DNA of 41,483 nucleotides from a virus. The notes under the pieces are model-generated. The model saw only the letters and a list, made by a program, of their open reading frames with translations, was not told the origin of the DNA and searched no databases. Position numbers and translations under genes: made by a program. The stretch lies in the IMG/VR virus record IMGVR_UViG_3300022602_000193, positions 1-41,483 of that record; one strand, given 5' to 3'. Numbering within the stretch: position 1 is the first letter of the stretch; every line of letters starts with the position of its first letter. Of the stretch, positions 3,281 to 33,728 are shown piece after piece.

Positions 3281-3288
3281 TGGTTGTT

Positions 3289-3293: not shown

Positions 3294-3300
3294 GAATGTA

Positions 3301-3333: not shown

Positions 3334-3366
3334 CCTTTATCATTATATTTGCCTATTATTTTACTG

Positions 3367-13332: not shown

Positions 13333-16300
13333 ATGGCAACAACCACAAGACAGACGGTGATATTTGGAGTTGAAGATTGGAAAAGAATCTATCAAACCTA
13401 CAGAGAAGCTGACTTTCAAAGTTATGATTTTGAAACTCTACGCAAAAGTTTCGTAGATTATTTGCGCTTGTATTATCCAGAAACCTTTAATGATTATATT
13501 GAAAGTTCTGAATTTATTGCCTTGTTAGATGTAATGGCCTTTATGGGTCAGTCATTGGCCTTCCGCAGTGATTTAAACACTCGTGAAAATTACATGGACA
13601 CAGCAGAGCGCCGAGATTCTGTTGTTAAACTTGCCAACTTGGTCAGCTATACACCATTAAGAAATACTCCTGCATCTGGCTATCTAAAAGTGTTCAGTGT
13701 AAAAACCACAGAAAGTGTAGTAGATTACAATGGCATAAACCTTGCAAACATCACAGTTAACTGGGCAGATCCTACAAACCTTAATTGGCAAGAACAATTT
13801 ACATCAATTATCAACGCTAGTTTAGTCAACACTCAACGCTTTGGTCGACCCGGAAATGATCAAATAATTCTTGGTGTCGACACACAAGAATACACTATTA
13901 ACTTGGTGCCAGGATATCTTCCAGTAATTCCTTACACTTCGACCATTGATGGTATCAGCATGCCATTTGAAGCTGTAAACGCAACCAGCTCTGGTGAGAG
14001 TTATGTTTACGAACCGCCTCCATTGCCCAATGGACAGTTTAATATATTGTTCCGCAATGATGCGCTGGGATATGCCAGTGCCAACACTGGATATTTTTTC
14101 TTGTTCAAACAAGGTGTACTACAGAATCAAGACTTTAATTTACCTGAGCGTATCAGCAATCGTCAAGTTGATATCAATATTGAAGGTGTCAACAACACCG
14201 ATGTATGGTTGTATCAATTAGACAACACTGGCAATATCAGTAGCTTCTGGCAGTATGTACAAAGTGTTTATGGTGCTGCCATTGAACAATTGTCAGCAGG
14301 CACACGCGACATTTACAGTATTACTAGCAGAACCAATGATCAAATTACATTGAACTTTGGTGATGGTGTGTTTAGTACCATTCCTGTGGGAACATTCCGC
14401 ACTTATGTTCGTGCATCCAACGGATTGACTTATATTATTAATCCAGCTGAAATGCAAAGCGTACAAATTCCTATCAGCTATGTAAGTAGAACAAATCAAA
14501 TTGAAACTATTACATTTACTTGTGGTATCACTCAACCTGTGACCAATGCACAGGCCAGAGAAACAATTCAAGAGATCAAACAACGAGCTCCTGCAAGATA
14601 CTACACACAAAATCGCATGGTCAACGGTGAAGACTACAACAACTTTCCGTTTACACAATACAACAGTATTTTAAAAAGCAAGGCCTTGAATCGTGCATCT
14701 ATTGGTACTAGTCGTTATCTTGACCTAGTTGATGGCACAGGAAAATACTCAAGCACAAACACATTTGCCGCAGACGGCGCATTATACGAAGCAAACAATT
14801 TGCCAGCGTTCCAGTTTACTTGGTTGACAACCAGTGACATTGCCAATGTGATTTATAATCAAGTAACTCCTTTGTTGGTTGAAGCTGGACTACAACAATT
14901 TTATTATGCAAACTTTCCAAGACCAGATTTAACATTATTAAATTATACTTGGCATCAAAGTACACTTATTACCAATGAAACCACTGGATATTTCCAAAAC
15001 TCACTAGGTAATCCTATCAGCATAGGAGCGTATGCCAGCAACAATGCTCAATATATCATTGAAGGTAGCTTGGTAAAATTTGTTCCTCCTACAGGTTATT
15101 TCTTTAATGCAAGCAATCAAATAATTGCTGGTGTTCCAAGCAACCCAGGCGACAAACTGGTATTATGGGCAAGTCCTACTGCGGTGTACCTTGAAGGAAC
15201 TGCACAGGGCCTTGGTAATTTGCCATCTGGCGTTGGCCCAGTTGTACTAAACAATTCTATTCCGACTGGAGCAATACCCACACAGGTAATTCCTTTGTTT
15301 GTTACACAACTGCCTACCAGTGTGCAACAAAGCGTGCTAAATCAAATTTATTTGAATCAAAATTTTGGTCTTGGCTACAATAATCTAACCAACAGTTGGT
15401 ATTTGATTGCATCAAACAATCTTGCGATCAATGCAAGTTTTAGTTTGAGCAATGCTCAAAGCACCGCTGGTGTCAACAGTGATGCTTCGTGGCTGATACA
15501 ATTTACCACAAACAATGGAACATACACTGTGGTATCACGAAGCTTGGATTATTATTTTGGTAGCGTGATTGACACAAGATTTTTCTTTTACTCAAACCAA
15601 CCAATTTACGATTCCAGAACTGGAACAGTTATCACTGACTATATCAATGTGTTGAAAATCAACAGTCAACCTGACAGTAATTCACCATTGTCTGGTGATA
15701 GCATTTTAAAAATAATTGGTCAGCCCATTCTCAGCGACGGCTTAGTTGACGACTTTCAAGTGCTAGTAAGTTTTGAAACTACCAGTGGTGATTTAATTCC
15801 TATCAATCCTGATTTCTTTAACGACATTGTAGCTCCATCAGTTAACGCAAATCAGAAATTGGTATTCCTGCAACAAACAGTTGACTTTGATAATCTTCAA
15901 CGCTATTTGTTAGTTGCGTCTGGAGTGGTCAATAGTGATTACCCAACTATGAGCAGTATTGAATTGGTAAAAGCAGACTACCTAGTCGGGCAAGTATTCT
16001 ACGCTTATCAAGATCAAGTATTCTACGATCTTACCTTGGACTCTTTAGGCAATAGTGTGTTGACAGTGGATTCGACTTTTATTGCCTATACAGGTCGCCA
16101 AGATTTGTATTTTCAGTATAGACACAATTCACCATTGACCAGTAGAATTGACCCTGGATCAACCAATATCATTGATTTGTACATTGTTACTAATGACTAT
16201 TATACTTCCTATCAAAATTGGATTAAAGATTCAACCGGTACAGTGGTAGAACCAACACCACCTACCATAGACGAATTAACAACTGCCTATGCAGGACTGC

Positions 16301-16737
16301 AAGATTATAAAATGATTTCTGACAATATGATTTTAAATTCAGTGCAGTTCCAACCATTGTTTGGCAGCAAGGCAGATCCATCATTGAGAGCAATTGTCAA
16401 AGTTATTCAATCTGCTCAAAGCACTGCTAGTGTAAGTGAAATTAAAAATCTAGTTGTAACAAATATGAATGCTTACTTTAGCATTGATGCTTGGGACTTT
16501 GGTCAGACATTTTATTTCAGTGAACTTGCGGCCTATATACATCAAAACATGGGCGACATTGTTAGCTCGGTAGTATTAGTTCCGTTGGATCCACAAAAAA
16601 GTTTTGGTGACTTGTACGAAGTTAGATGTGCACCAAATCAAATCTTTGTAAATGGCGCAACAGTCAATGATGTTCAAGTAATAACAGCATTGACCAGCAC
16701 CAATATTAGAACAGCCCCTGGTAGCGGAGTAATTTAA
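13333..16737 (+). CDS. gp6: Baseplate wedge protein gp6, enlarged
   Basis: This is an 1134-residue protein against 660 for T4 gp6. Residues 10-110 hold the N-terminal wedge region (LRKSFVDYLRLYYPETFNDY, ALLDVMAFMGQSLAFRSDLN, RRDSVVKLANLVSYTP). Residues 220-450 continue the family with FNILFRNDALGY, NFGDGVFSTIPVGTFR and the RAPARYYTQNRMVNGEDYNN motif, which matches T4 APKFFQTQNRAVTVEDY. The C-terminal 130 residues (VVTNMNAYFSIDAW, SFGDLYEVRC) also look like family. Between about 480 and 990 lies a beta-rich insert. In the virion gp6 forms the inner ring dimer that holds the wedges. The start has AGGAAGAG just upstream, and the stop overlaps the next ATG (TAATG). Confidence 0.9.
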   Translation: MATTTRQTVIFGVEDWKRIYQTYREADFQSYDFETLRKSFVDYLRLYYPETFNDYIESSEFIALLDVMAFMGQSLAFRSDLNTRENYMDTAERRDSVVKLANLVSYTPLRNTPASGYLKVFSVKTTESVVDYNGINLANITVNWADPTNLNWQEQFTSIINASLVNTQRFGRPGNDQIILGVDTQEYTINLVPGYLPVIPYTSTIDGISMPFEAVNATSSGESYVYEPPPLPNGQFNILFRNDALGYASANTGYFFLFKQGVLQNQDFNLPERISNRQVDINIEGVNNTDVWLYQLDNTGNISSFWQYVQSVYGAAIEQLSAGTRDIYSITSRTNDQITLNFGDGVFSTIPVGTFRTYVRASNGLTYIINPAEMQSVQIPISYVSRTNQIETITFTCGITQPVTNAQARETIQEIKQRAPARYYTQNRMVNGEDYNNFPFTQYNSILKSKALNRASIGTSRYLDLVDGTGKYSSTNTFAADGALYEANNLPAFQFTWLTTSDIANVIYNQVTPLLVEAGLQQFYYANFPRPDLTLLNYTWHQSTLITNETTGYFQNSLGNPISIGAYASNNAQYIIEGSLVKFVPPTGYFFNASNQIIAGVPSNPGDKLVLWASPTAVYLEGTAQGLGNLPSGVGPVVLNNSIPTGAIPTQVIPLFVTQLPTSVQQSVLNQIYLNQNFGLGYNNLTNSWYLIASNNLAINASFSLSNAQSTAGVNSDASWLIQFTTNNGTYTVVSRSLDYYFGSVIDTRFFFYSNQPIYDSRTGTVITDYINVLKINSQPDSNSPLSGDSILKIIGQPILSDGLVDDFQVLVSFETTSGDLIPINPDFFNDIVAPSVNANQKLVFLQQTVDFDNLQRYLLVASGVVNSDYPTMSSIELVKADYLVGQVFYAYQDQVFYDLTLDSLGNSVLTVDSTFIAYTGRQDLYFQYRHNSPLTSRIDPGSTNIIDLYIVTNDYYTSYQNWIKDSTGTVVEPTPPTIDELTTAYAGLQDYKMISDNMILNSVQFQPLFGSKADPSLRAIVKVIQSAQSTASVSEIKNLVVTNMNAYFSIDAWDFGQTFYFSELAAYIHQNMGDIVSSVVLVPLDPQKSFGDLYEVRCAPNQIFVNGATVNDVQVITALTSTNIRTAPGSGVI

Positions 16738-19700
16738 TGGCAAATAATGTTCGTTCAGTAGACTTTTTACCTCCAATTTTCCAGACACCTGTAAACAAAC
16801 AGTTCTTGGCTGCAACATTGGATCAATTGATCCAAGAACCCAAATTTAAACAAACACAAGGATTCGTAGGTCGTCGTGTTGGTCCTGGTGTCAACGCTAA
16901 TGATCAATATGTGATTGAACCGACTAAAACTCGCACTGATTATCAACTCGAACCTGGTGTTATCCAAGTTGATCCAAATAATTTTAATCAAATTGTTGAT
17001 GCAATCACTTACCCTGGGTTAAATGATGCAATCAAGCTACAAGGCGGTGTAACTACTGATGCCAACAGTTTGTACACCAGTGACTATTATACCTGGGATC
17101 CGTTTGTTGACTTTGATAAATTTGTAAATTTTGCACAGTACTTTTGGTTGCCCAATGGACCAGATGCAGTGGATGTATCCAGTGTAGGCGTACCTATCAC
17201 CGACGACTTCACTGTGACCAGAGCCAATGGTGTATACACTTTCAGCGGATACACTGGCAACAATCCTACAATCACATTGGTCAAAGGTGGCAGTTACAAT
17301 TTCAATGTGGCACAAAATGACACTGCCACTGTTGAATATCGTGTGACCAACAAAGGTACAAGTGCCTATGTTGTTGATTACTCAACTAATCCAACTTTGA
17401 CTTTTACTCGCGGAAACACTTATACATTCAATCTTTCGTTGACTGGAATATTTCCCTTTTATATCAAGACTCTAGTAAGTCTTGGAACAGTTAATGTTTA
17501 TTCTGAAGGCGTGCTCAACAACGGAGCCACAGAAGGACTGATAACATTTACAGTGCCCTACGATGCGCCAGATACATTGTATTACTGTGCATCCAATGAA
17601 ACTAACATGTATGGACAGTTGAACATCATTGATGCAGTTCCTGGCACTGGTCCAGGTTTTTGGATTCAAACAGATCCTGGCATAAACGGTCGCATTCCTG
17701 CTACTCCTAACATCAGTAGTAGAGATGTTCTAGGTGTGGTTAACAATGGTATAGATCTTGGCACAGTGACATTTAATGTGCCACTCAATGATGCTCAGAG
17801 TTTTTACTATAATTTAGAAAACATTGGCACAATTGATTTGATCACCACATTGGAATTTGATCAAATCAACAATGTATATGTTGATGATTTTTTAGCAGCC
17901 AATCCTGATGGCATTGATGGCATTACAAATCTCAACGGTCGTACTTTGGTGTTTAACACCACAACTGATAATGGATGGGAAATATCCACACGCTACGATC
18001 CGTTAGTTAGAACAAGTCCTCCTTACTATCCTATCCAGTCTGAAACAATCGACGGTGATCCTGCACTGTGGATCAACAACATCAGTTATGATGTTGACGG
18101 TCAACCTTTTGATGCACAAGATTTTAACACAGATAACTTCAATGTGTATTCTGGTTCGCCAGATCCATTGGATGGATATCCTGGTAGCTTTGATAGTTTA
18201 CCGTTTGACCAAGCCACATACATCACAGACCAAAGCATTAGATACAGCATATGGCAAGCAAACTATGTGCCTGACTCAGAAGGAAGATTATACATTTCTC
18301 TCACTAGTACAACACAAATTAGTAACCTACAAAAATTTACTATATTGTTTGGTCAACAGTATGCTAGTACACAGTGGTACAAGGACGCAGAAGGTTACTT
18401 CCAAGAAGTACCATTGTTGACTGCTGATAAAACTTTGTTGTTTTACCAAGATGGTGCAGACCCAGAAATTTTTGGACAGATCAGATTAATAGAAGAAAGT
18501 TTGTCTGACACTATCGATGTTTCCAGCATCCTTGGCAAGAAAACTTATACTTCTCCCAATGGTGTGACCTTTACCAACGGGATGAAAATTGTGTTCCGAG
18601 GCAGTGTCAACCCTACCAGCTACGAAAACAATGAATACTATGTCGAAGGTGTTGGAACTGCAATTCAGTTATTGCCTGTTACTAATTTTGTTACTCCTGA
18701 AACATACACACAAAGTGCATCAGTACCATATGATTTAACAACCTATGACAACGGAAACTTTGATGGCACACTCAATGCTCCGCTGATTCCAGATTATCTA
18801 ACTATAAATCGTGCCAGTCCAGATCTCAACGCATGGACCAGAAGTAATCGTTGGTTCCATGTGGATGTTATCAATGCTTCTGCGGTATACAACAATACTG
18901 TGCCAGTGCTTGACAACAATTTCCGTGCTCGCCGTCCAGTGTTGGAATTCCGTGCAGGTACAAAATTATTTGACTTTGGTACACAGGGTAAACAACCAGT
19001 CAACATCATTGATTTTAATGCCACTGATGCACTGACCACAATCAATGGATCAATTGGATACAGTACAGACGGATACAAACTGATCACTGGCAGTAGAGTT
19101 ATTTTTGCTGGCGATGCAGATCCACTAGTAAGAAATCAAATTTATGAAGTTGAATTTATTATACCAGACACAGTTGCACCCTTGATCGCAGAACCTATTA
19201 TTAATCTGGTTCCAGCAAGCGATTCAACTGTGCTCGCAGATCAGTCTGTGGTTTGCTTGGATGGTATTACACTTCAAGGTGTGACTTTCCGTTATGATGG
19301 TGTTGAATGGATACAGGCACAACAAAAAGTAAGTGTAAATCAGCCACCACAATTTGATGTCTACGATGCCAACGGAATTAGCTTTGGCGATAGAACAGTA
19401 TACACTGGTACCAACTTCTATGGAAGTTCTTTGTTCAGTTACGCAATAAGTTCCAATGCGCCAGACCTGGTACTGGGATTTCCAATAACCTATTTGAGTC
19501 TGACCAACATTGGCGACATTGTTTTTGACAACAACTTGTACAGTGATTCTTTTAACTATACTTTGAACAATGTGGGACAAACTGTGCCATTGAGCACTGG
19601 CTTTGTTTACCAGTACAGTGATAGAACCCTATATACAAGAGAAATTGGATGGCAGACCGCTGCAACCAAGAGCCTGGTACGACAACAATTCCAATTTGTA

Positions 19701-22700
19701 TATGATGGTAGTCCTGTGCAACTTGATGTTGCAGTAAGCACCAACACAACTGTTCCTGCAATACAAGTATTCATCAATGCCACATTCCAAGAGTCGTACA
19801 ATTATAGAGTATCAATTTCTTCAAACACTACCACAATCACCTGGCTAACTGCTTACAATCCTGGCGACTTGATTGAAATTGATGTGTTAAGTGATCAAAC
19901 CAGTGCAATTGGTTTTTATCAAGTTCCTATCAATTTGGAAAACAATCCATTGAATGGAAACAGCACACAATTTACACTGGGAACAATTAGAAATCACTAC
20001 AGTACAATTGCACAAAACCTAATAGGGTTAAGTGGCCCTGTGATTGGCGCAAACAACACTCGAGACCTAGGTAATATTATTCCCTACGGCTTACAAATAC
20101 TGCAACAAAGTTCACCATTGACTTTGGCTGGATATTTCATGCGAGATGCCAACTACGACATCTTTGCATCACTGGATTTCAACAGCAGAGAATATATTAA
20201 ATTTAAATCTCAACTGTTGGACACTGTGGTCAACAATGACTACACAGGACTAACTATTCCGGAAATTCTTGATTCAGCAATTTCACAAATCAATCTAGGA
20301 AGAACCAGCTTAAATCCCTTCTACTGGAGTGACATGTTGCCCACTGGCACAGTGTTTACTTCAACTGTGACCACAGTGACACAGATCACAACGGCTGTGT
20401 TTAACACTTTGCAAACATACACATATACATCTGCTAACTATCTAGGTTTGTTGGTTTACTTAAATGGTGTTTTGTTGACCAGAGGTTATGATTATGTGGT
20501 ATCAACTGACAGTCCACGCTTGACAATTTCTGTGCCATTGAAAACTGGTGATGTTGTTACTATCAATGAATATTCAACTACAACAGGAAATTTTGTTCCC
20601 AACACTCCGACCAAACTTGGATTGTACCCTAAATTCAAACCAGAAATCTTCTTGGATGTTGATTACATAAATCCTACTCCTGTAATCCAAGGTCACGACG
20701 GAAGTATCACTGTGGCGTTTGGCGATTTTAGAGATCAAATATTACTTGAATTTGAAACTAGAATCTACAACAATCTAAAAACAGATGACAATCCTGTGCC
20801 ATTAACTGCTGATGATGTGATACCTGGATTCTTCCGCACAACAGATTATAGTCAGGCGGACATCACTGATATATTAGGCGAAAGCTTCTTGAGCTGGGCA
20901 GGCTACAACAAATTAGATTACAAGACACAAAATTATTTTGCTGCTAATCCTTTTACCTACAACTACAGCAGTGCTGGTAACAAACTTAACAATCAACCAT
21001 TGCTGGGTGCATGGCGTGGCATATATCGTTACTTCTACGATACAATTTCTCCTAACTTGACTCCTTGGGAAATGTTGGGATTCAGCGAAATGCCAGTATG
21101 GTGGGAAAACCGTTACGGCCCTGCTCCATACACCAATGGTAACTTGGTGTTGTGGGGAGATTTGGAACTGGGTCTAGTGGCAGATCCTGTGGCTCCTTAT
21201 ATACTGCCTAACTATGCAAGACCTGGGTTGACAGAAGTAATTCCAGTTGATTCAGAAGGAAATTTGTTGTCACCATTGGACAGCGTGGTTGGTGCATACG
21301 ATCCCACTGCTTGGCGTAAGAGTTGGGTTGTAGGCGACGGCGGCCCAGTAGAAGCAGCTTGGTGGTCAAGCTCTAGCTATCCATATGCAGTGATGAGATT
21401 ATTGGCAGTGACTCGTCCTGCAGAATTCTTCTCGTTGTTTGCTGACAGAGACTTGTACAAGTATAGCACTGAGTTTGATCAATACTTGTACAACGGTCGT
21501 TACAGAATCAATGCAGGTCAACTTGCTCCATTGTACGGCAGTGGAACAAGCAAGGCCAGTTATATTGATTGGATTATTGATTATAATCAACAATTAGGTA
21601 TTAATTCTTCTGACGCATTGACCACTGACTTGGCCAATATTGATGTGCGTTTGTGCTACAGAATGGCTGCGTTTACAGACAAACAGTATGCCAGCATATA
21701 CCTAGAAAAATCCAGCCCCGAAAGTCAGAATTCTAGTTTGTTATTGCCTCCAGAAAGTTGGAACCTACTGGTATACAAAAATCAACCATTCGATGAAATT
21801 ATCTACAGTTCAATTATCATTGAACAAATGGAAACTGGATTCAGTGTCTATGGGTATAGCAACACACAACCTTATTTCCCAATTCTTGCAAGTTCAACCA
21901 GTGGACTCACACAGACCATCAACGCTGGCGGTGTCACAGTACAGGTTCCTGCACAGTACACAAACAATGTTGTGCAAATTCCGTATGGATACAACTTTTC
22001 TAACATCACTATTGTAGTTGACTTTATTTTGAGTTATGGAGCATTGCTAACGGCACAAGGATTGTCCTTTGACAATGTTGAAAATGGTTATGTATTAAAT
22101 TGGCAACAAATGGCCCAGGAGTTTTTATACTGGGCAAATCAAGGCTGGGCTCCTGGTGCAATTATCAACATCAACCCATCGGCTACCAAACTGTCTGCTT
22201 ATCGACCTGGTGCAGTGGTTGATACCATTGTGAGTCTGACTCCAGAAAACATGTTGTTGGATCAGAACAAACAAGCTCTTGCCACACGAAATTTAATTAT
22301 ACTTCGTGATGGTGACAGTTTCTCAATTACATCTGCAACCAATCAAACAATTTCATATTTGGATATGAGATTTACCAACTACGAAAACATGGCAGTACTG
22401 GATAATGTAAGTATTTTCAATGATTTGATTTATGATCCTATCACTGCTGAAAGACAAAATCGTATTGCGTGGTCGGCAGCTATTACTCCAGAATGGAACG
22501 GTACATTAAATGCACAAGGGTTTATCCTTAACCAAAACAATGTCAAAGCCTGGCAACCAAATACCAAGTACACCAAGGGCGAAATTGTCATATACAAAAA
22601 TACCTATTGGAGTGCACTTAACATTGTTCAACCAGCTGCACAGTTCAACTATGCTGACTGGGTAAAGAGCAATTACGATTTGATTCAACAAGGCTTGTTG

Positions 22701-25700
22701 CCAAATATTGCCAACAAAGCTGATCAGCAGGCCAACAGCTACAACATCTATGATGCCAATCTTGAGCCAGACAATGACTTGTTGGCCTACGGATTGATTG
22801 GATGGAGACCTCGTCAATACATGGTTGATCTTAATCTTGACAATGTGAGTCAAATTAACCTGTATCAACAATTCATTGGTGTCAAAGGAACCTTGCTCAG
22901 TACTGATATTTTTACCCGAGCAAACTTCAACAAAGAAACTGGTCAATACACTATCCTTGAAAACTGGGGTGTGTTGGTTGGAACCTACGGTGCCAACGCA
23001 AATCGCAGTTACATTGAATTACGATTAAATGAAGCATTGTTGACTGGAAACCCTAGCACAGTACAAGTTATACAACCTGGACAAGCCAGCGAAGCAGATC
23101 AAACTATTATTTTACAGGATTTGTGGAGTGAGAGTTATAAAATACCCACAACAAACATATTCCCTACTACTTACACCACTAACTTGGATGTTTCATTGCC
23201 TAGTGCAGGTTATGTAAATCTCAATGATGCAGACCTTACTGTGTTCAATTTGAATGATCCATCAAGCATTGAAGCCAATTTAACCACAGTTGGCAATGGT
23301 ACAACTATTTGGGTCGCTCAAGTAAACAGCTACAACTGGGACATTTATAGATGTGTTCAAGTTCCAGGTCGCATGATTAGATTAAACGACAATCTAAATC
23401 AAACTAGCGTTGCTACATTTAGTAGTGCTCATGGATTGTCAGTTGGAGATCTCATGGTTGTGAGATATTTCAGCAACAATGTTGACGGTGTGTTCCGTAT
23501 CTTAGCAGTACCGTCTACAATCAGTGTGGTCATTGCATATGCATTTACCAACACAAATCAAACACAAATTGTCAGCAATGGTATAGCATTTTATCTACAG
23601 TCAATGAGAGTTGCACAAGCAAGTGACATTGTTAATTTGCCGGCAGCGCATCAACTTCTTCCTGGCGTCAAAGTCTGGGTTGACAACAATGGATCCGGAC
23701 TATGGGAAGTTGTTGAAAAAGAAGACCCATTTGTTGAAAAGATATTATTAGAACCGTTCCTTCCTGTGACAAATTCATTGTTTGGAACCAGTATTAGTCA
23801 AAGCTCTGATCATTACAGTGTTATTGTTGGTGCACCTGGTGCCAGCAGTGGTGCAGGTGCATTGTACACATATCGCCGTGAACAAACTCAGATCTATGTT
23901 GACAACATCCTGTTATATTTGACTGCAGCTGGCACAGTTGGCTACGGTAACAGTGTGTCTTTTGGCAATCAAAATTGGGCAGTGGCTGGTGCCAGTGCAA
24001 GTAATTCCAACGCTGGATATGTAACGCCATTGTATCAAATTCCAGGAACCAACGACTATGTTCAAACACAGTTGTTGGTTGCTCCAGATCAGAATTTTGG
24101 CACAATTAATTTTGGTGCATCAGTTGTAATGAGTCAAGATGAACACTGGATGTATATTGGTGCTCCTGGCGCTAATTGTGTTTATGCCTACGGTATTGTG
24201 GAAGTTCCTGGACAGACTATATCCTACCTGACTGATGGTGTAACAACCAGCTACAACTGGTCTAGTGCTATTCAAATTAATCCAGCACATCCAGGACAAC
24301 TTATTGTTTTGTTGAGCAATAAAACATTGACCTTTGGTATTGACTACTATATCAACTCAAATGTTGTGCAATTCTATACACCACCAGTTGCTGCACAACC
24401 ATTGATCATTACAAGACGCATTTCTGCCACACTGGATCAAAACATTTATTATAATGTTACACAAAATTCCACATCTGGTACTGGCACAGGTGCAACATTC
24501 ACAGTGACAAATACTCGTGGCACTTACTACCCAACACTGAGCTTTGGTGGCCATGGGTACGCATACAACAACACATTGACCATAAGCTATACACAAGTAT
24601 CACCTACTGGGTCATCTGCTAACAACTTGACAATAACAGTTACTACAGTTGATGGTACTGGTGCTATTACTGGGTTTACCTATTCTGGATCTGGGGTTTC
24701 AAACACCAGCACATTTACACTAAATCCATATTTGGCCACACTGTCTGACATTTATTCGTTTACTGTGACTGTGAACGGTGTGTTACAAAGACCTTACATT
24801 GATTACACCTACAACAGTGGCACATCTGTAATAACTTTTATTACTAATCCCAGTGCAGGTGCAACAATCAGTGCCACAACTGGAACATACTGGGATTATA
24901 TCAATAAAATCAATGTATCTGGCCTAGATAGTGCTGCATTGTTTGGTGGAACTGTTACTACATCTACAGATGGAACACAGATTTTAATTGGCGCGTCTAA
25001 CGACAGTGGTGTCGATTCAGCTGGAGATACAATATCTCATGCTGGTGCGGTATATGCATTTGATCGCACATCAGTTAATATTCAGATTACCAATGCAAAT
25101 CAAAACACATATTCAATTCCAGGATCATCTACTGCACCTGTTGCAGTGTTGTTGAACGGTGTGTATCTAACAAACACTGTGTATTATATCAACGGTCAGT
25201 ACACAATCAGCGGATCTAGCGTTGTATTGTCATCTAATGTTGTATTGACAGTGGGTGATATTCTAACAATTCAAACTAACCAATTTAAATTTGTGCAAAA
25301 AATGAATGCCAATGTTGTGATTGATGAATCAGCATTTGGCAAAGCAGTACAAATGTGTGCAAATAACTGTAGCTTGTACATTGGTGCTCCGTTTGACAGT
25401 ACAGCTGCACCACAAGGTGGTGTGGTTGAGCGTTTTGTAAATCAAAGTAGGATCTACGGAGTTACAACCAGTACCATTGCCAACCCAACATTGACTGCAG
25501 GCAACACCATAAGAATCAACGGTTATCAAGTTGCAGTTCCCAGCGGATCCAAACAAAACATTCTTGGACTTATCTCTGCAATTAATTCTGCACAAATACC
25601 CAATGTTGTAGCAACCGCAGTGTCAGATGTTACATTGGCCGGTGACGGTAAAACTACTGCATTTTATATTGGATCTGTTTATTCAGCCGCTAGTTCTTAT

Positions 25701-28700
25701 ACCACAGTGGTCTATGTCAACGGAACCTTGTTGACTTATGGATCTGACTATAGTTACAACAACACAACTCAACAATTATTCTTCTCGGCAGCTCCTGCGG
25801 CAAACAGTGTGATAACAGTACAAGCTGGAAGAATGACTTTGAGCGTGATGAACGCTGATGCAGCATTGCCTTATAATAAAATAAATGTGCTGCCTGGAGT
25901 AAGTGGTACTGCATTTGCAGACATTGGATTTGATACTTTTGTATGGGTACAAGACATATTTGCTCCAAACCCAACACAGTACGCACAATTTGGTTCAAGT
26001 ATCAGTATCAACTCAAATGCAATAAATTTAGTAGTTGGTGCACCAAACGGCAATGTTTATGAAGCAACTACATTTGATGCTGACACAACATATTTTGATG
26101 AGCATAGCACTTCGTTCTTCAATGAAATATTTAATTCTGGTGTAGCATATTCATATGACTACTTGCCTAGTGCTACTACATCATTGGCCAACCCAGGAGC
26201 GTTTGTATTTGGACAACAAATATACGAAGGCGTTCTTGCCACTGGCGACCTTTATGGTACCGCTGTAAATTATCGTAACGGTCGATTACTAGTTGGCGCA
26301 CCTGGCAGTGACCAAGGAGCCACAAGTGGAAACTTTGGATTGGTTTCTGTACTAGACAATCCCACAGGAGCACCGGCTTGGACAGTATTGTACCAGCAAC
26401 AACCTGTGGTTGATGTGTCACAGATTGACACAGTTTACAGCTACAACAAATTACTAAACAGTACACAAACATATTATGACTTCATTGATCCGCTGCAAGG
26501 AAAAATACTTGGAGCTGCCAGAAGAAATATTGACTTCATTGGTGCAGTTGATCCAGCAAATTATAATCAAGGGTCTGTTCACAATGTTGGTAACAGCTGG
26601 GGGTCAGAACATGTTGGACAAATTTGGTGGGATACAAACACAGTAAGATTCATCGATGCCAACCAAGATGATTTGGTTTACGCAAGTCGTCGTTGGGCAC
26701 AAATATTCCCAGGCAGTAGAGTTGATATCTACCAGTGGATAGAAAGCACAGTGCCACCATCACAATACACTGGGCCTGGCACACCGTTGAGCACAATAAG
26801 TTACACAATAAAATCAGTGTTGACCAACAACGGAGTATTCTCAACTGTGTACTATTACTGGGTAAGAGGTATTTCAACAATCAATACTGCAGCCGGCAAG
26901 ACATTGAGTTCTACGGGTATTGCTGGTTATATTACAAATCCATACAGTAGCGGAATACCATTTATTGCTGGTATCAATGCTAACACTGTGGCCTTGTATA
27001 ATTCTTCTGGATTGATATCTGCAACTGACACAATCTTACATATTGGATATGTTCGTCAAGCGTCAGATGCAAACATTCACACCGAATATGAATTTATTGC
27101 TGATGGCCGCCCTAGTGATTTCTTGAATGACAATTTATATCGCAAGCTCCAAGACAGTTTGTGCGGTGTTGATACTGCTGGTAATCTAGTTCCTGATCCT
27201 GGACTCAGCCCAGGCGAACAATACGGTGTACAGTATAGACCCCGTCAAAGCATGTTTGTTGATCGTTTCATGGCATTGCAAAACTATTTGACTCGTGCCA
27301 ATAGCATATTGTTGCAATACCCAATATCTGAAACACGAAACTTTAGCATGCTAAACAGTGCAGAAGCTCTGCCTACTAACTCAGTGGCCACAGGAACACA
27401 GTGTTCAATATCCGGAAACACATTGACAATAGCTGGCGAAATCACTGGAAGATTCAGTGTCGGCATGTTGGTTCTTGGCAATAATCTTGTCAGTGTTGCA
27501 CCTGGTACAATTATCACCGGACTTGGCACAGGCACAGGCGGTGCAGGAACATACACAGTTAATATATCTCAAACAGTGGTTGCCACAAACATTATTTGTG
27601 TGTATGGATGGAATCAGGAAGTACCAACACTACAAGTTTTGGATTATCAAAATCTCAACCAAGTGCCTGTAGGATACATTTATCTAGTAGATTCTGATTC
27701 CAGTCAGAATGGCCTATGGACAGTGTATCAAGTGGATTTAGCTGCCACAGGCAACAGAATACTTTCATTGATCCGTATTCAAAACTACGATACTAAACTC
27801 TATTGGGACTATGTCAACTGGTACATGCCTGGATACAATAGTTCTATTCAACCCATTGCCACTGTGCCTAACTATGCTGGCTTGTCCACTTTGAGTTTGA
27901 CTGCTGCTCCTGTTGGCAGTAGTGTCAAAGTTTCTGCCAACGGTCAAGGTAAGTTTGAAATTTATCTTAGAAATGCCACAGGATGGGAGCGTGTGGGACT
28001 AGAAGACGGTACTATACAGTTTGATGAATCTTTGTGGAACTACAATGTTGGACGATTTGGATTTGATAACGAAGTGTTTGATGCACAGTATTTTGATCAA
28101 GATCCAACTACAGAAACAAGAAAAATTATTCAAGCAATCAATGAACAATTATTCATTGACGAATTGTTGATTGAAAAAAATCAATTGTTGATCCTGATGT
28201 TCAACTACATCTACAGTGAATTTACTGCACCAAATTGGTTGATGAAAACCAGTTTTGTCAGTGTAGACCACACAATTCGTGCACTGTTGCCGTATCAATT
28301 CTACATACAAGACAATCAGACTTTTGTTGAAGATTACCTACAAGAAGTCAAACCTTATCATACACAGATACTTGAGTTTAACTTGATCTATGATGGCCTG
28401 GACACTTATCCTGGCAGCATGACTGACTTTGATTTGCCAGCATACTACGACAATAGCTTGACTTTCCCACAGTTTGTGAGTCCAATACTTACACCTTACA
28501 CTGCCAGCGGAAGCAAGGTTGAAAGTTTTGTCAGCGATGCTGAACCCAACGCTGAAATTTGGGCACAGGATCCATGGAGCCAATGGTACAACAATTACCT
28601 GTTAGAAATAATGAGTGTGAATGTGATCAATGGCGGGTATGGATACACTGTACCACCAGTGGTCACTGTCACAGGTAACTGTATCACTCCAGCCACAATG

Positions 28701-31631
28701 ACTGCTGTTATCAACAGCGCAGGACAAGTAATCGGAGTGAACATTGTTGATCCAGGCTACGGATATACAACCACTGCACAGATCGCACTAGAAGGTGGCA
28801 ACGGTTACGATGCCATAGCAGTAGCAGTAATGGGCAATGGATTGGTAAGATCCATTAAAACTGTTATCAAATACGATCGCTATGAGTACAATAGCAGCAT
28901 CGTAGATTGGCAACCAAATGTGGTATACACACAAGGTACCTTGGTTAGATATGCCAATGTAGTATGGAGTGCACCTACAACTGTTGTGGGTACTGTGTTT
29001 ATTCCCACAGAATGGACATTGGTTGATGCCAGCACACTAAGCGGTGTTAACCGTACCATGGGATATTATACTCCTACTCCAGACGAGCCTGGTCTGAGTC
29101 TACCATTGTTGATTGACGGTGTTGAGTACCCAGGTGTGCAAGTAACTGCACCAACATACAATCAAAACACAGGTTTTGATGTGGGTAATTTTGATGTCAA
29201 CCCATTTGATAACATTGTTTATAGTCCAGAAGGATTCCCAACATACGATCCATCTATCCTGGATGCGGCATACAGCAGTAGTTACTTAGACACATATCTA
29301 GGAACAAGACCCACAGACATCAATGTTGATGGTGGTGCTTATGTTGATGCATACAGTAGCCATGCACCAGAAGAACTAGTACCAGGTGCTGAATTTGATA
29401 CCCTGGATTTCAGAGTATATACTACTCCAGGAGCAGACTGGACCGGTCGTGGACATGGTGTAGCTATTGCTGGTCGTAGATACGCCTATGATCCAGCTAA
29501 TCCGTTGTTGTATTTTGGTGACATTATACCGTTCCCAATGACAGTGTTTGTATTCAACATTACCAATGGTTACGGAGTTGAATCAGATGGATATGATTGG
29601 TTAAACTACCAATTATATGTTAGCCCAGCTAATCCATTGGTTGCTCCAGGCGATATTATACAAGTAGCAGTATCAGGCACCGGCGGCGGAAACCAATTGC
29701 TAAATGCAACATACACCGGGTCTGAAGTACAGGCAGCAAATAATTCAATTACCGTGCCGTTTCCATATAGTTCAATTTACGAATTTGTGATTTACATTGG
29801 CGAGTACGGTCCGCTGACATTGGACGAAGAATATTACTTTGTTCCAATTTATGCAGATACAGGTCCTCAAGCAGTTTATAGTCCTATAAGCAGTGGAACT
29901 AATCTGGTTGTTTCTTCAGTAATTGGCATTTCTGTAGGATCTTTGATATTTGGCAACGGATTTACTCAAGGACAGACTGTGGTCAGCATAGACGGTCCAA
30001 CATCAATGACCATCAGTGCTCCGCCAGATTCAACTCCAGGTGATGTGTTGACATTCCTTGCAGACACAGGTTCCACACTGATTCAATTTACATTTGAAAT
30101 ATTCCCAGTATATCGCGTAAATTTAACTTGTTTGGGTTACGAGTCCAACGGCCCAACACATAGTTATTCACTACCAACATTCCAGACTTGGGATGCTGAC
30201 GGAAGTTTATCAGTTACACTAACCAACAGTTTGCAAGGAACAAATCCTGCCAACATGATTATTGCGGTCAACGGTCTTCGTGCTAGACCACCAGAGGGCA
30301 TAAGATATATTTCAGATGGATCCACCGTGACCTATGCATTGCCACGCAACGGTGGTTATAGTCAAAGCCTAGTGTCCGACAATGATGTTGCGGTTTACTT
30401 AGATGATAGTATTCAGCTTATCTTAGGAGTTGACTATGTTGTTGATCCATATGTTAACGACGCAACTCCACGCACAATTACTTTGTCTAATTCTGTGCCT
30501 GTTGGATCTGTAATATTGATTTCTGTGAGAACAATTGCTCAGTACTGGATACTTGGTGACCAACTTCAATTCCGACCAGATCAAGGACTGTATCCTCAAA
30601 TTGGATACAGAGTTGAAATTGTGACCTGGAATGATACTTCACAACAAGGACTTGAAACACAAGTTTGGATTGGCCCTATCACTGAAGGTGTACTAGTAAG
30701 TGAAACCTACGACTCAACTGACTTTGACATTGGAACAGTGAATGATGCTTCTGGATCATTTGACTACAGTGTTGGCACACAAAAACAAGTAAATGTGTTT
30801 GACACTGGTAGATTGATTACCAATGCAGAAAGAATATTTGTGTCATTGGATGGATACTTCCTGTTTGATGGCAACGGTTACATTGTTGATGGTACCAAGA
30901 TAATTATTCCAGGTCCTGCAATTGGTCCCACATCAACTGTGGTAATTACCAGCTTCACACAAAATATTGTGCCACAGGCCATGGCATTCCGCATATTCCA
31001 AGACATGCGTGGTAATCAATTGACATATCGTATTACACCAGAAACAACAACCACTTTGCAAACACCATTGTTGGCCACAGATGATATAATTTTTGTAACT
31101 GATGCCAGTGCACTGGTTGATCCAAACTTGGAAGAAAACATCTGGGGTGTGTTGACCATTGATGGTGAAAGAATTATGTATCGTTTGCGCGACACAGTTT
31201 TTAACACAGTCAGTGGATTGATGAGAGGAACTGCTGGAACTGCAGCTGCTGATCATGCAGTGGGCGCAACTGTGTATAACATAGGACTTGGCAATTTGTT
31301 GTATCCAGAATATCAAAATTACATTGTAGAAACCAATATCCTAGGCGATGGTTCGACCAGTGTGTTTGTTGCGGAAAACATTGTGACTCAGACCTTAAAT
31401 GAAGCAAAAGCTGCAGTTGAAGTGTATGTGGGCGGAACCCTTGTAGAAAATAACATTTACAATTATACGATAGACAGTTATAATCCTGTCACTGTAAACT
31501 TCTATTTCCCTCCTGCTGCAGGGTCAATGGTCACTATATTAGTACGCAGAGGCGAGTCTTGGTACAATACTTCTGGTGTGCCACTGCAAGAAACTGACAC
31601 AAAGGCTGCAAGGTTTTTACGGGGACTATAA
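16737..31631 (+). CDS. Giant 4964-residue modular baseplate/tail protein
   Basis: A single open frame of 14.9 kb encodes about 530 kDa. GGAG lies 7 bases before the ATG, which overlaps the gp6 stop. Residues 1-150 are a conserved head domain (RSVDFLPPIFQTPVNKQFLA, YQLEPGVIQVDP, YTWDPFVDFDKF). Residues 215-300 look like a cupredoxin. Residues 1380-1880 are a Trp/Tyr-rich block (WRGIYRYFYDTISPNLTPWE). CBM-like motifs begin near 1939 and 4058. Seven FG-GAP-like repeats span 2349-3200. A GTGTGGAGTYTV module is near 3590, and EVKPYHTQILEF is near 3875. At least nine beta modules carry V-x-V/L-N-G and D-Y signatures. It sits where T4 has gp7 but shows no visible gp7 similarity. I infer a baseplate periphery or host-contact protein. 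Confidence 0.85.
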   Translation: MANNVRSVDFLPPIFQTPVNKQFLAATLDQLIQEPKFKQTQGFVGRRVGPGVNANDQYVIEPTKTRTDYQLEPGVIQVDPNNFNQIVDAITYPGLNDAIKLQGGVTTDANSLYTSDYYTWDPFVDFDKFVNFAQYFWLPNGPDAVDVSSVGVPITDDFTVTRANGVYTFSGYTGNNPTITLVKGGSYNFNVAQNDTATVEYRVTNKGTSAYVVDYSTNPTLTFTRGNTYTFNLSLTGIFPFYIKTLVSLGTVNVYSEGVLNNGATEGLITFTVPYDAPDTLYYCASNETNMYGQLNIIDAVPGTGPGFWIQTDPGINGRIPATPNISSRDVLGVVNNGIDLGTVTFNVPLNDAQSFYYNLENIGTIDLITTLEFDQINNVYVDDFLAANPDGIDGITNLNGRTLVFNTTTDNGWEISTRYDPLVRTSPPYYPIQSETIDGDPALWINNISYDVDGQPFDAQDFNTDNFNVYSGSPDPLDGYPGSFDSLPFDQATYITDQSIRYSIWQANYVPDSEGRLYISLTSTTQISNLQKFTILFGQQYASTQWYKDAEGYFQEVPLLTADKTLLFYQDGADPEIFGQIRLIEESLSDTIDVSSILGKKTYTSPNGVTFTNGMKIVFRGSVNPTSYENNEYYVEGVGTAIQLLPVTNFVTPETYTQSASVPYDLTTYDNGNFDGTLNAPLIPDYLTINRASPDLNAWTRSNRWFHVDVINASAVYNNTVPVLDNNFRARRPVLEFRAGTKLFDFGTQGKQPVNIIDFNATDALTTINGSIGYSTDGYKLITGSRVIFAGDADPLVRNQIYEVEFIIPDTVAPLIAEPIINLVPASDSTVLADQSVVCLDGITLQGVTFRYDGVEWIQAQQKVSVNQPPQFDVYDANGISFGDRTVYTGTNFYGSSLFSYAISSNAPDLVLGFPITYLSLTNIGDIVFDNNLYSDSFNYTLNNVGQTVPLSTGFVYQYSDRTLYTREIGWQTAATKSLVRQQFQFVYDGSPVQLDVAVSTNTTVPAIQVFINATFQESYNYRVSISSNTTTITWLTAYNPGDLIEIDVLSDQTSAIGFYQVPINLENNPLNGNSTQFTLGTIRNHYSTIAQNLIGLSGPVIGANNTRDLGNIIPYGLQILQQSSPLTLAGYFMRDANYDIFASLDFNSREYIKFKSQLLDTVVNNDYTGLTIPEILDSAISQINLGRTSLNPFYWSDMLPTGTVFTSTVTTVTQITTAVFNTLQTYTYTSANYLGLLVYLNGVLLTRGYDYVVSTDSPRLTISVPLKTGDVVTINEYSTTTGNFVPNTPTKLGLYPKFKPEIFLDVDYINPTPVIQGHDGSITVAFGDFRDQILLEFETRIYNNLKTDDNPVPLTADDVIPGFFRTTDYSQADITDILGESFLSWAGYNKLDYKTQNYFAANPFTYNYSSAGNKLNNQPLLGAWRGIYRYFYDTISPNLTPWEMLGFSEMPVWWENRYGPAPYTNGNLVLWGDLELGLVADPVAPYILPNYARPGLTEVIPVDSEGNLLSPLDSVVGAYDPTAWRKSWVVGDGGPVEAAWWSSSSYPYAVMRLLAVTRPAEFFSLFADRDLYKYSTEFDQYLYNGRYRINAGQLAPLYGSGTSKASYIDWIIDYNQQLGINSSDALTTDLANIDVRLCYRMAAFTDKQYASIYLEKSSPESQNSSLLLPPESWNLLVYKNQPFDEIIYSSIIIEQMETGFSVYGYSNTQPYFPILASSTSGLTQTINAGGVTVQVPAQYTNNVVQIPYGYNFSNITIVVDFILSYGALLTAQGLSFDNVENGYVLNWQQMAQEFLYWANQGWAPGAIININPSATKLSAYRPGAVVDTIVSLTPENMLLDQNKQALATRNLIILRDGDSFSITSATNQTISYLDMRFTNYENMAVLDNVSIFNDLIYDPITAERQNRIAWSAAITPEWNGTLNAQGFILNQNNVKAWQPNTKYTKGEIVIYKNTYWSALNIVQPAAQFNYADWVKSNYDLIQQGLLPNIANKADQQANSYNIYDANLEPDNDLLAYGLIGWRPRQYMVDLNLDNVSQINLYQQFIGVKGTLLSTDIFTRANFNKETGQYTILENWGVLVGTYGANANRSYIELRLNEALLTGNPSTVQVIQPGQASEADQTIILQDLWSESYKIPTTNIFPTTYTTNLDVSLPSAGYVNLNDADLTVFNLNDPSSIEANLTTVGNGTTIWVAQVNSYNWDIYRCVQVPGRMIRLNDNLNQTSVATFSSAHGLSVGDLMVVRYFSNNVDGVFRILAVPSTISVVIAYAFTNTNQTQIVSNGIAFYLQSMRVAQASDIVNLPAAHQLLPGVKVWVDNNGSGLWEVVEKEDPFVEKILLEPFLPVTNSLFGTSISQSSDHYSVIVGAPGASSGAGALYTYRREQTQIYVDNILLYLTAAGTVGYGNSVSFGNQNWAVAGASASNSNAGYVTPLYQIPGTNDYVQTQLLVAPDQNFGTINFGASVVMSQDEHWMYIGAPGANCVYAYGIVEVPGQTISYLTDGVTTSYNWSSAIQINPAHPGQLIVLLSNKTLTFGIDYYINSNVVQFYTPPVAAQPLIITRRISATLDQNIYYNVTQNSTSGTGTGATFTVTNTRGTYYPTLSFGGHGYAYNNTLTISYTQVSPTGSSANNLTITVTTVDGTGAITGFTYSGSGVSNTSTFTLNPYLATLSDIYSFTVTVNGVLQRPYIDYTYNSGTSVITFITNPSAGATISATTGTYWDYINKINVSGLDSAALFGGTVTTSTDGTQILIGASNDSGVDSAGDTISHAGAVYAFDRTSVNIQITNANQNTYSIPGSSTAPVAVLLNGVYLTNTVYYINGQYTISGSSVVLSSNVVLTVGDILTIQTNQFKFVQKMNANVVIDESAFGKAVQMCANNCSLYIGAPFDSTAAPQGGVVERFVNQSRIYGVTTSTIANPTLTAGNTIRINGYQVAVPSGSKQNILGLISAINSAQIPNVVATAVSDVTLAGDGKTTAFYIGSVYSAASSYTTVVYVNGTLLTYGSDYSYNNTTQQLFFSAAPAANSVITVQAGRMTLSVMNADAALPYNKINVLPGVSGTAFADIGFDTFVWVQDIFAPNPTQYAQFGSSISINSNAINLVVGAPNGNVYEATTFDADTTYFDEHSTSFFNEIFNSGVAYSYDYLPSATTSLANPGAFVFGQQIYEGVLATGDLYGTAVNYRNGRLLVGAPGSDQGATSGNFGLVSVLDNPTGAPAWTVLYQQQPVVDVSQIDTVYSYNKLLNSTQTYYDFIDPLQGKILGAARRNIDFIGAVDPANYNQGSVHNVGNSWGSEHVGQIWWDTNTVRFIDANQDDLVYASRRWAQIFPGSRVDIYQWIESTVPPSQYTGPGTPLSTISYTIKSVLTNNGVFSTVYYYWVRGISTINTAAGKTLSSTGIAGYITNPYSSGIPFIAGINANTVALYNSSGLISATDTILHIGYVRQASDANIHTEYEFIADGRPSDFLNDNLYRKLQDSLCGVDTAGNLVPDPGLSPGEQYGVQYRPRQSMFVDRFMALQNYLTRANSILLQYPISETRNFSMLNSAEALPTNSVATGTQCSISGNTLTIAGEITGRFSVGMLVLGNNLVSVAPGTIITGLGTGTGGAGTYTVNISQTVVATNIICVYGWNQEVPTLQVLDYQNLNQVPVGYIYLVDSDSSQNGLWTVYQVDLAATGNRILSLIRIQNYDTKLYWDYVNWYMPGYNSSIQPIATVPNYAGLSTLSLTAAPVGSSVKVSANGQGKFEIYLRNATGWERVGLEDGTIQFDESLWNYNVGRFGFDNEVFDAQYFDQDPTTETRKIIQAINEQLFIDELLIEKNQLLILMFNYIYSEFTAPNWLMKTSFVSVDHTIRALLPYQFYIQDNQTFVEDYLQEVKPYHTQILEFNLIYDGLDTYPGSMTDFDLPAYYDNSLTFPQFVSPILTPYTASGSKVESFVSDAEPNAEIWAQDPWSQWYNNYLLEIMSVNVINGGYGYTVPPVVTVTGNCITPATMTAVINSAGQVIGVNIVDPGYGYTTTAQIALEGGNGYDAIAVAVMGNGLVRSIKTVIKYDRYEYNSSIVDWQPNVVYTQGTLVRYANVVWSAPTTVVGTVFIPTEWTLVDASTLSGVNRTMGYYTPTPDEPGLSLPLLIDGVEYPGVQVTAPTYNQNTGFDVGNFDVNPFDNIVYSPEGFPTYDPSILDAAYSSSYLDTYLGTRPTDINVDGGAYVDAYSSHAPEELVPGAEFDTLDFRVYTTPGADWTGRGHGVAIAGRRYAYDPANPLLYFGDIIPFPMTVFVFNITNGYGVESDGYDWLNYQLYVSPANPLVAPGDIIQVAVSGTGGGNQLLNATYTGSEVQAANNSITVPFPYSSIYEFVIYIGEYGPLTLDEEYYFVPIYADTGPQAVYSPISSGTNLVVSSVIGISVGSLIFGNGFTQGQTVVSIDGPTSMTISAPPDSTPGDVLTFLADTGSTLIQFTFEIFPVYRVNLTCLGYESNGPTHSYSLPTFQTWDADGSLSVTLTNSLQGTNPANMIIAVNGLRARPPEGIRYISDGSTVTYALPRNGGYSQSLVSDNDVAVYLDDSIQLILGVDYVVDPYVNDATPRTITLSNSVPVGSVILISVRTIAQYWILGDQLQFRPDQGLYPQIGYRVEIVTWNDTSQQGLETQVWIGPITEGVLVSETYDSTDFDIGTVNDASGSFDYSVGTQKQVNVFDTGRLITNAERIFVSLDGYFLFDGNGYIVDGTKIIIPGPAIGPTSTVVITSFTQNIVPQAMAFRIFQDMRGNQLTYRITPETTTTLQTPLLATDDIIFVTDASALVDPNLEENIWGVLTIDGERIMYRLRDTVFNTVSGLMRGTAGTAAADHAVGATVYNIGLGNLLYPEYQNYIVETNILGDGSTSVFVAENIVTQTLNEAKAAVEVYVGGTLVENNIYNYTIDSYNPVTVNFYFPPAAGSMVTILVRRGESWYNTSGVPLQETDTKAARFLRGL
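17388..17640 (+). other. Cupredoxin-like domain in the giant protein, ligands apparently lost
   Basis: Residues 218-301 read NPTLTFTRGNTYTFNLSLTG, PFYIKT, ITFTVPYDAPDTLYYC and NMYGQLNIID. This follows the pattern of cupredoxin-like domains found in marine phage structural proteins. From memory of those, a GHPF His and a CxxHxxM loop carry the metal. Here the corresponding spots read IFPF and ASNETNM, so the His/Cys ligands seem to be missing. Confidence 0.45.
22551..22667 (+). other. CBM5/12-like motif 1 in the giant protein
   Basis: Residues 1939 to about 1977 read WQPNTKYTKGEIVIYKNTYW, then a stretch ending in ADW. The W-x3-Y-x2-G-(D/E)-x-V-x-Y-x3-(Y/W)-(x)n-W pattern is that of small chitin/cellulose-binding modules (CBM5/12). 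It is a likely sugar-contact site. Confidence 0.5.
23781..26320 (+). other. Seven FG-GAP-like repeats (integrin-type beta-propeller) in the giant protein
   Basis: Blade motifs begin near residues 2349 (FGTSIS...IVGAPG), 2403 (YGNSVS...AVAGAS), 2459 (FGASVV...YIGAPG), 2736 (FGGTVT...LIGASN), 2867 (FGKAVQ...YIGAPF), 3085 (FGSSIS...VVGAPN) and 3173 (YGTAVN...LVGAPG). Seven copies is the number needed to close an FG-GAP propeller such as that of integrin alpha. Blades 3-4, 4-5 and 5-6 are separated by inserts that carry other beta modules. Confidence 0.65.
28908..29030 (+). other. CBM5/12-like motif 2 in the giant protein
   Basis: Residues 4058 to about 4098 read WQPNVVYTQGTLVRYANVVW, then a stretch ending in TEWTLV. 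It repeats the pattern of motif 1 about 2100 residues earlier, including the opening WQPN and the closing Trp. Confidence 0.5.
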
Positions 31632-32447: not shown

Positions 32448-33728
32448 ATGGCATATACAATTACATTAACCAATGGTACTATATTTGCGGTAATCGCAGA
32501 CGGTACTGTTAACCAATCTAGCTCAATGACACTAGTTGGTAAAAACTGGGCTGGTTACGGTCAGTTTCTAGACGATAACTTTATTCGTTTGCTAGAAAGT
32601 GGAGCAAATAGCTCGCCACCCGGAGCACCATTGACTGGTCAGCTTTGGTGGGATAGTACCAACAATGTTCTAAAGATTTACAATGGTTCTATATTTAAAA
32701 CCATTTCTGCTGCCACTGCTAGCACAACTGCTCCTACTAGTAATTCGGTTGGTGACCTTTGGTTTGATACAACCAATCAACAGCTTAAAGTTTGGACTGG
32801 TTCACAATGGTTATTGATTGGTCCACAGTTTACTGCTGGTCAAGGTGTTACAGGTGCTATTCCAGTTACTATTGCAGACAATGCATCGGGCGCACACTAC
32901 TGTATCGAATTGTATTGTAACAACGACATTGTTGGTATTATCAGCCAAGACGCTACATTTACTCCAGCGGTCGGTATTCCAGGATTTACAACAATCCGTC
33001 CAGGTATCACACTGGCAAGTATTGTTGGTGCCAATGTTCCGTTGTTCCAAGGTACTGCAACAAATTCTCAAACATTGAACGGACTTACCAGTTCTGAATT
33101 CATGCGCAGTGATACTTCAACTAGTACTTCTGGTACATTGAGCGTGTTAAACAACAGTGGTTTATCAGCTGGTGTTAACAGTGACTTCCGTGTCAGCGTT
33201 GCAGGTACTGCTGTGACATTGGCTAATCAAACCAGTGGTGGTAACATTTATTTTGGTGTGAACATTGCTGGTACACCCACAACAGTAATGACAATCAATG
33301 GCGCATCTGGCGCAATTTCCGGCAATCAAATCACTGCTAACTACGCCGATGTGGCAGAACGCTTTGCTGCAGATGCTGTTTATGAAGCAGGTACAGTGGT
33401 TGAACTTGGTGGTGAACAAGAAATCACATATTCAAGATCAGATTTAAGTGAAACTGTATTTGGTGTGATAAGTACTAAAGCTGCCTACTTGATGAACAGT
33501 AGTGCAGGTAACGATTCTACACACCCACCAGTTGCGATGACTGGACGAGTTCCTGTTAGAGCAATCGGAACAGTTGCCAAAGGTGATCGATTGGTATCCG
33601 CGGGTAATGGATTGGCTAGAGCTGCAAAGCCTGGTGAAGCTACTGCATTTAATGTAATTGGCCGTGCGTTGCGAGATAAATTAGATTCAGCTGAAGGCAC
33701 AGTAGAAGCCATCGTTACAATAAATTGA
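32448..33728 (+). CDS. Tail fibre-like protein with conserved C-terminal domain
   Basis: This is a 426-residue protein. The N-terminus (GTVNQSSSMTLVGKNWAGYG) and two tandem motifs, GQLWWDSTNNVLKIYNGSIF and GDLWFDTTNQQLKVWTGSQW, are typical of marine phage fibres. A Ser/Thr/Gly/Asn-rich beta shaft follows (about 140-300). The C-terminal 125 residues begin NYADVAERFAADAVYEAGTV and run through VFGVISTKAAYLMNSSAG, VAMTGRVPVRAIGTVAKGDR and an ending EGTVEAIVTIN. This domain recurs at fibre C-termini and resembles the peptidase-G2-type region, which in some phages is an autocleaving chaperone; that activity is not shown here. It is expected to bind receptors at the cell surface. Its own late promoter and RBS precede it. 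Confidence 0.75.
   Translation: MAYTITLTNGTIFAVIADGTVNQSSSMTLVGKNWAGYGQFLDDNFIRLLESGANSSPPGAPLTGQLWWDSTNNVLKIYNGSIFKTISAATASTTAPTSNSVGDLWFDTTNQQLKVWTGSQWLLIGPQFTAGQGVTGAIPVTIADNASGAHYCIELYCNNDIVGIISQDATFTPAVGIPGFTTIRPGITLASIVGANVPLFQGTATNSQTLNGLTSSEFMRSDTSTSTSGTLSVLNNSGLSAGVNSDFRVSVAGTAVTLANQTSGGNIYFGVNIAGTPTTVMTINGASGAISGNQITANYADVAERFAADAVYEAGTVVELGGEQEITYSRSDLSETVFGVISTKAAYLMNSSAGNDSTHPPVAMTGRVPVRAIGTVAKGDRLVSAGNGLARAAKPGEATAFNVIGRALRDKLDSAEGTVEAIVTIN

Follow-up and report, generated by a model that had tools for sequence, protein, structure and literature searches.

A predicted seven-bladed, integrin-class propeller in a slot of a giant, most likely baseplate, protein of a jumbo phage

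In animals, the propeller of the integrin alpha subunit, a head that binds ligands, has seven blades built from FG-GAP-type repeats. In integrin topology, C-D loops occupy the lower face, the B-C and D-A loops form the upper, ligand-binding face, and the I domain is placed between blades 2 and 3. Repeat proteins of the FG-GAP_2 family (PF14312) have an FG...GA-P blade core. Beta-propellers are known from phage tails and baseplates as well. The receptor-binding protein of phi11 contains a five-bladed propeller that has been implicated in recognition, and PhiKZ gp131C, at the baseplate periphery, contains a seven-bladed one for which a recognition role has only been suggested (PMC4901313). In the nozzle of podovirus SU10, Ig-like domains separate blades of a seven-bladed propeller, into which they are inserted (PMC9509320). 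These phage proteins, and the T7 nozzle, occupy other particle positions than the one considered here and, as far as known, use other repeat families. We describe a propeller predicted in the middle of a giant protein of 4964 residues, encoded at 16737..31631 on the plus strand of the virus record IMGVR_UViG_3300022602_000193. The whole stretch of 41,483 bases was analysed and is called the window below; all propeller features lie on the plus strand, and residue numbers are those of the giant protein.

A first-pass annotation of the window had reported seven FG/YG...GAP-type units in order in this protein. A scan with the motif [FY]G..[VILAMT]-x(5,18)-[IVLAMF]-x-[VIAG]-G-[AS] yields seven units and no more in the giant protein, at the residues first reported. 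They open the blade cores, which are marked both by the motif and by strands of the AlphaFold2 model: residues 2349-2367 (23781..23837) for blade 1, 2403-2420 (23943..23996) for blade 2, 2459-2477 (24111..24167) for blade 3, 2736-2754 (24942..24998) for blade 4, 2867-2885 (25335..25391) for blade 5, 3085-3103 (25989..26045) for blade 6, and 3173-3189 (26253..26303) for blade 7. Shuffling the whole protein 1000 times gave a mean of 0.26 motif units and a maximum of 3, and 2000 shuffles confined to residues 2330-3220 gave 0.11 units on average and at most 2. It is thus confirmed that the seven units are not a chance occurrence. The span first proposed, 23781-26320, does hold all seven, but the full propeller with its inserts is slightly longer on both sides, covering residues ~2331-3222 (23727..26402) as judged from the AlphaFold2 model, the FG-GAP_2 match and the junctions with phage 121Q.

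The profile search that the first-pass annotation had proposed gives a significant result. The Pfam model FG-GAP_2 scores 29.4 bits (E 9e-7) against the whole protein, above its curated cut-off of 23, and 47.8 bits (E 1.6e-12) against the propeller region by itself; all 42 relatives scanned also match at E <= 0.01. A hidden Markov model (HMM) of the blade, built from 54 relatives, recovers the seven units at 31-41 bits each, a result that is not independent, as the window was included in the model. The classical FG-GAP model, PF01839, has no match in the window, which places the blades outside the calcium-binding type, and no DxDxDG-type calcium loops were found at the window blades. The pattern D-x-[DN]-x-[DN]-G is present in 9 of the 54 relatives, of which only two carry it in blade 6 and the rest mainly before blade 1. 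A tblastn search of 50,697 phage records with the propeller returned no match. A profile of the region had no real match among Protein Data Bank (PDB) sequences, so sequence alone gives no link to solved propellers.

Structure prediction supplies this link. AlphaFold2, given 978 residues of the window protein and a 54-row alignment, returned a model that is nearly all strand, with a predicted local distance difference (pLDDT) of 89 and a predicted template modelling score (pTM) of 0.87. Integrin alpha heads dominate its top Foldseek matches in the PDB (best E 1.3e-8), with template modelling (TM) scores of 0.1-0.25 normalised by query and up to 0.49 by target. These scores are low because of the large inserts, and a relative with short inserts was therefore modelled separately. 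The model of this shortest-insert relative (L059, 758 residues) reached pLDDT 90 and pTM 0.90. All 50 of its PDB matches listed are integrin alpha (best E 2.3e-11), and the target-normalised TM-score is 0.60 on complete seven-bladed integrin heads of 440-452 residues. Neither PhiKZ gp131C, the phi11 receptor-binding protein nor the SU10 and T7 nozzles occur among the 50 structural neighbours listed for either model. Taken with the FG-GAP_2 match, the two models indicate that the region very probably adopts a seven-bladed FG-GAP propeller fold of the integrin-alpha class, as the first-pass annotation had proposed. Separate beta-sandwiches in place of a ring would have refuted this, but the predictions resemble the seven-bladed integrin head instead; such sandwiches as are present form additional loop inserts in three of the blades.

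Only the propeller fold is common to the two systems. Integrin alpha (for example 4wjk, 9ind) is the best structural neighbour (target TM 0.60, E ~1e-10) and likewise has seven blades of FG-GAP-type repeats, whereas the phage blades lack the DxDxDG calcium loops, share ~10% identity with it, have no known beta-subunit partner, and carry inserts in the C-D loops of blades 3-5. The surrounding protein is a phage structural protein, and the region is not an integrin alpha subunit. From other FG-GAP_2 proteins, with which the window and every relative tested share the blade core, it differs in the large domain inserts and in its setting inside a baseplate protein of ~5000 residues. Predicted structures of viral proteins that resemble the window model are those of other FG-GAP proteins, chiefly from giant viruses, and target TM-scores reach 0.75. 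One further match is A0A2L0UZX4, a 393-residue 'hemagglutinin' of phage Atu_ph07 (target TM 0.65); judging from this model comparison, Atu_ph07 may carry a stand-alone propeller despite having a giant protein without blades.

When the FG motifs are mapped onto the model's DSSP string, the inserts fall between strands C and D in each of blades 3, 4 and 5. The blade 3 insert (24204..24881) holds two copies of a beta-sandwich module (residues 2493-2572 and 2655-2719; HMM scores 57 and 62 bits), with an optional domain of ~88 residues between them. The blade 4 insert (25068..25271) is a single copy (2781-2850; 36 bits). In blade 5 (25449..25931), one copy (2963-3032; 60 bits) is joined by a small mixed domain that, in one relative, weakly resembles flagellin hook IN. 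The same type of module recurs elsewhere in the giant protein, at residues 1209-1278, 4522-4603 and 4867-4934. Blade 6 carries a different kind of feature, a conserved B-C loop at residues 3104-3134 (26046..26138) with the motif FDxxxTxFD. It is the best-kept long loop of the propeller, present in strict form in 107 of the 120 relatives that have at least 7 blade hits.

Searching IMG/VR with the giant protein's body yielded more than 200 relatives, of which 80 were taken, and a second, profile-based search returned 80 further loci, not all of them new; the resulting set is skewed towards relatives of the window. In nearly all relatives taken, the units lie at equivalent places, and FG and GAP rank among the best-kept positions in the alignment of 54. 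Units 6 and 7 are 88 residues apart in almost every full-length row, and the spacings from 1 to 2 and from 2 to 3 stay within 52-68, whereas those from 3 to 4 (188-297), 4 to 5 (121-143) and 5 to 6 (148-263) vary. Together with the FG-GAP_2 matches in all 42 relatives scanned, these steady and variable spacings identify the units as blades and the variable stretches as inserts. A tree was built from 102 body sequences, 95 uncultured and 7 cultured, rooted by midpoint only. In an uncultured clade of 80 rows, nearly all full-length members have seven blade hits, and the three uncultured rows without blades come from contigs that end before or at the propeller's site. A deep subclade of 15 (L160, L161, L164-L176) shows mostly 40-46% identity and has a longer giant protein, up to 5925 residues.

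The propeller also exists in a compact version. When the body profile was run on bacterial genome contigs, it picked out ten contigs of metagenome-assembled genomes, mostly marine, which are probably phage contigs binned with various bacteria and were not used as host evidence; the propeller profile, run on genome contigs, yielded no host assignment. Three marine relatives (L180, L181 and L182), with ~32% body identity, have in the same place a seven-bladed propeller of ~450 residues that lacks domain inserts and keeps the FDxxxTxFD loop. They score 52-65 bits with FG-GAP_2, and one marine relative lies just above the PF01839 cut-off (22.4 against 22.1). Profile-profile comparison aligns the compact propellers with the window family at 99.8% probability (E 5e-28), with gaps at the insert regions. 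A compact, insert-free form in the same place shows the seven-bladed ring to be the conserved unit. From sequence comparison, the inserts may be later additions, or they may have been lost from the compact forms.

The propeller occupies a fixed slot between conserved parts of the body. The giant proteins of Rak2-like and PA5oct-like phages (121Q gp582, CBB_236, Paride_0436) share the body on either side of the slot and the gene order, following gp25 and gp6, but lack the propeller. No blades were found in the giant protein of seven cultured relatives, among them 121Q, CBB, Paride and Atu_ph07, which group together on the tree, and Pfam finds no FG-GAP in the slots of five of them. In 121Q, alignment with the family profile stops at window residue ~2220 and restarts from ~3200. 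Read by eye, the window's junction sequence VWVDNNGSGLWEVVEK pairs with VWMFKDGNGLWNIFELVD in 121Q, and the two proteins become homologous again near AWTVLYQQQPVVDVS. The slot of 121Q and of CBB holds roughly 100 residues or fewer. Agrobacterium phage Atu_ph07 and Sinorhizobium phage Phosso (L084 and L085, residues ~2100-3190) have ~1000 residues of other modules in the slot, including repeated copies of another domain that match family-profile positions ~3840-3915. As the Atu_ph07 and Phosso slot is filled by other domains, the slot takes different cargo in different phages. The propeller is kept across a large uncultured family and is missing from all seven cultured relatives examined.

The giant protein belongs to a family of virion structural proteins, phrog_10938, which it matches over the body (E 9e-290). 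Its gene lies directly 3' of a T4 gp6-like baseplate wedge gene (13333..16737, plus strand; phrog_10646, E 2e-280; phrog_219, the family that includes T4 gp6, E 1.5e-22), which is preceded by a gene for a gp25-like wedge subunit (12913..13287, plus strand; phrog_261 and phrog_43). The order gp25, gp6, giant gene is that of CBB and 121Q, and in T4 gp7 follows gp6, so the window gene stands in the gp7 position. Relatives of the protein have been found in virions: 21 peptides of its direct relative CBB_236 in CBB (PMC5259590), and 17 peptides of phAPEC6 gp245, a 381.9-kDa protein that adjoins the wedge protein gp244 (PMC7247149) and that we judge to be the same giant protein by its size and neighbour. 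For MIJ3, a PA5oct-like phage, proteomics lists four bands, which do not settle the place of the giant protein in the particle. The body had no match in the PDB, and no NCBIfam family was matched. Because of the gene order and the virion peptides of relatives, the protein is most likely a component of the baseplate, and its description as a phage tail protein in the first-pass annotation is borne out. Pfam matches to carbohydrate-binding module family 5/12 (CBM_5_12), 31.8 bits in total, were also seen within it, at residues 4058-4079 and in a second stretch near ~1970 read by eye; the giant protein of cultured relatives is annotated 'chitin-binding type-3'.

For the role of the propeller we favour a conserved docking or adhesion platform of the baseplate, with a probability of roughly 0.5. 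The computation supports the repeat units, the family, the predicted fold, the slot, the conservation and the gene order; ring closure, the way the propeller is oriented in the virion, its copy number and all binding roles are inferred. In the proposed arrangement, one closed seven-bladed FG-GAP_2 propeller would sit in the fixed slot of a wedge-type baseplate protein of a jumbo myophage. The chain would leave a conserved, W-containing hairpin (residues ~2312-2328), circle the seven blades and rejoin the conserved body at ~3212. Blades 3, 4 and 5 would be extended by copies of the sandwich module used elsewhere in the protein. The result would be a rigid platform repeated around the baseplate, whose face with the conserved blade 6 loop would bind a conserved partner, either a neighbouring baseplate part or a fibre, while the sandwich-bearing face would point outwards and may engage the cell surface weakly and multivalently.

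Several observations weigh against this arrangement. The window model, as given above, has low TM-scores against integrins, and closure of the ring is deduced from TM-scores rather than from model coordinates. Mean pairwise identity is 0.45-0.58 in the propeller and mostly 0.6-0.7 in the body; the propeller is thus somewhat less conserved, which leaves room for a receptor role. Members of the deep subclade of 15 have only 1-7 recognisable blades, and their ring may be degenerate or simply divergent. Profile-profile comparison by hhalign of the giant protein with T4 gp7, the baseplate wedge initiator (phrog_964), gives a probability of 0.1%, which is not significant, and the label is therefore limited to 'gp7 position', based on gene position alone.

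The strongest competing explanation, which we regard as possible though tentative, is the receptor-binding head suggested by the first-pass annotation: the propeller would recognise a glycan or protein of the host surface, and the sandwich inserts would tune its specificity. The integrin-class fold, the phi11 and PhiKZ precedents, the varying insert lengths, the lower conservation relative to the body and the CBM_5_12 modules of the same protein speak for it. The propeller is not hypervariable, however; its seven blades and blade 6 loop are kept across very distant phages, nearly all relatives lack calcium loops in the blades, and a separate fibre-like gene lies downstream. Since the blade 6 loop persists across phages with ~32% core identity, a conserved partner explains it no less well than a host receptor would. 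With integrin calcium loops missing, variability only moderate and the blade 6 loop conserved, the head is not supported as originally proposed. The downstream gene (32448..33728, plus strand) encodes a fibre- or spike-like protein that matches tail-fibre PHROGs and Peptidase_G2 (26.1 bits, cut-off 25). It is plausibly a separate receptor-binding protein with an autoproteolytic chaperone domain, and an alternative seat of host specificity. A broader proposal we consider doubtful: that the propeller serves as the host-recognition or adhesion head of a large uncultured jumbo-phage lineage, with plug-in sandwiches on three blades, its slot in cultured relatives holding other modules or none.

A purely structural ring, akin to those in the podovirus nozzles of SU10 and T7, is unlikely; such a ring would pack against its neighbours, change conformation on contraction and have no outside ligand. 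This reading draws on the domain-decorated SU10 propeller, on the second PDB match of the window model, chain 9k09_U of the portal-tail complex of cyanophage A4, and on the conserved flanks and blade 6 loop. No link to nozzle proteins was seen at the sequence level, and seven cultured relatives do without the module (121Q has fewer than 100 residues there), a dispensability that argues against an essential role in the core architecture. That the seven motifs are a coincidence in an FG-, GA- and T-rich protein of separate sandwiches is scarcely credible: the protein is indeed rich in beta-sandwich modules with G-rich turns, but the shuffles, FG-GAP_2 in all 42 relatives scanned, the constant register, two confident integrin-like models and the compact relatives refute it.

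Both FG-GAP propellers and phage propellers were known before. The literature searched contained no report that joins FG-GAP with phage baseplates, or that describes an integrin-class propeller filling such a slot in a giant baseplate protein of jumbo phages. The comparison delimits, within the baseplate of a large group of phages, a modular slot where an integrin-type propeller is used as a whole seven-bladed unit whose blade number is kept while its decorations change. It raises the question of whether these phages use the slot to carry an additional adhesin or to gather fibres at a hub, and the pattern of presence and absence supplies natural comparison phages.

Elsewhere in the window, a gene on the minus strand (2381-3343) encodes a late-transcription sigma factor (phrog_12791, E 1.7e-76), and two radical-SAM-like proteins are encoded beside the virion genes, at 820-2397 on the minus strand and 39877-40737 on the plus strand.

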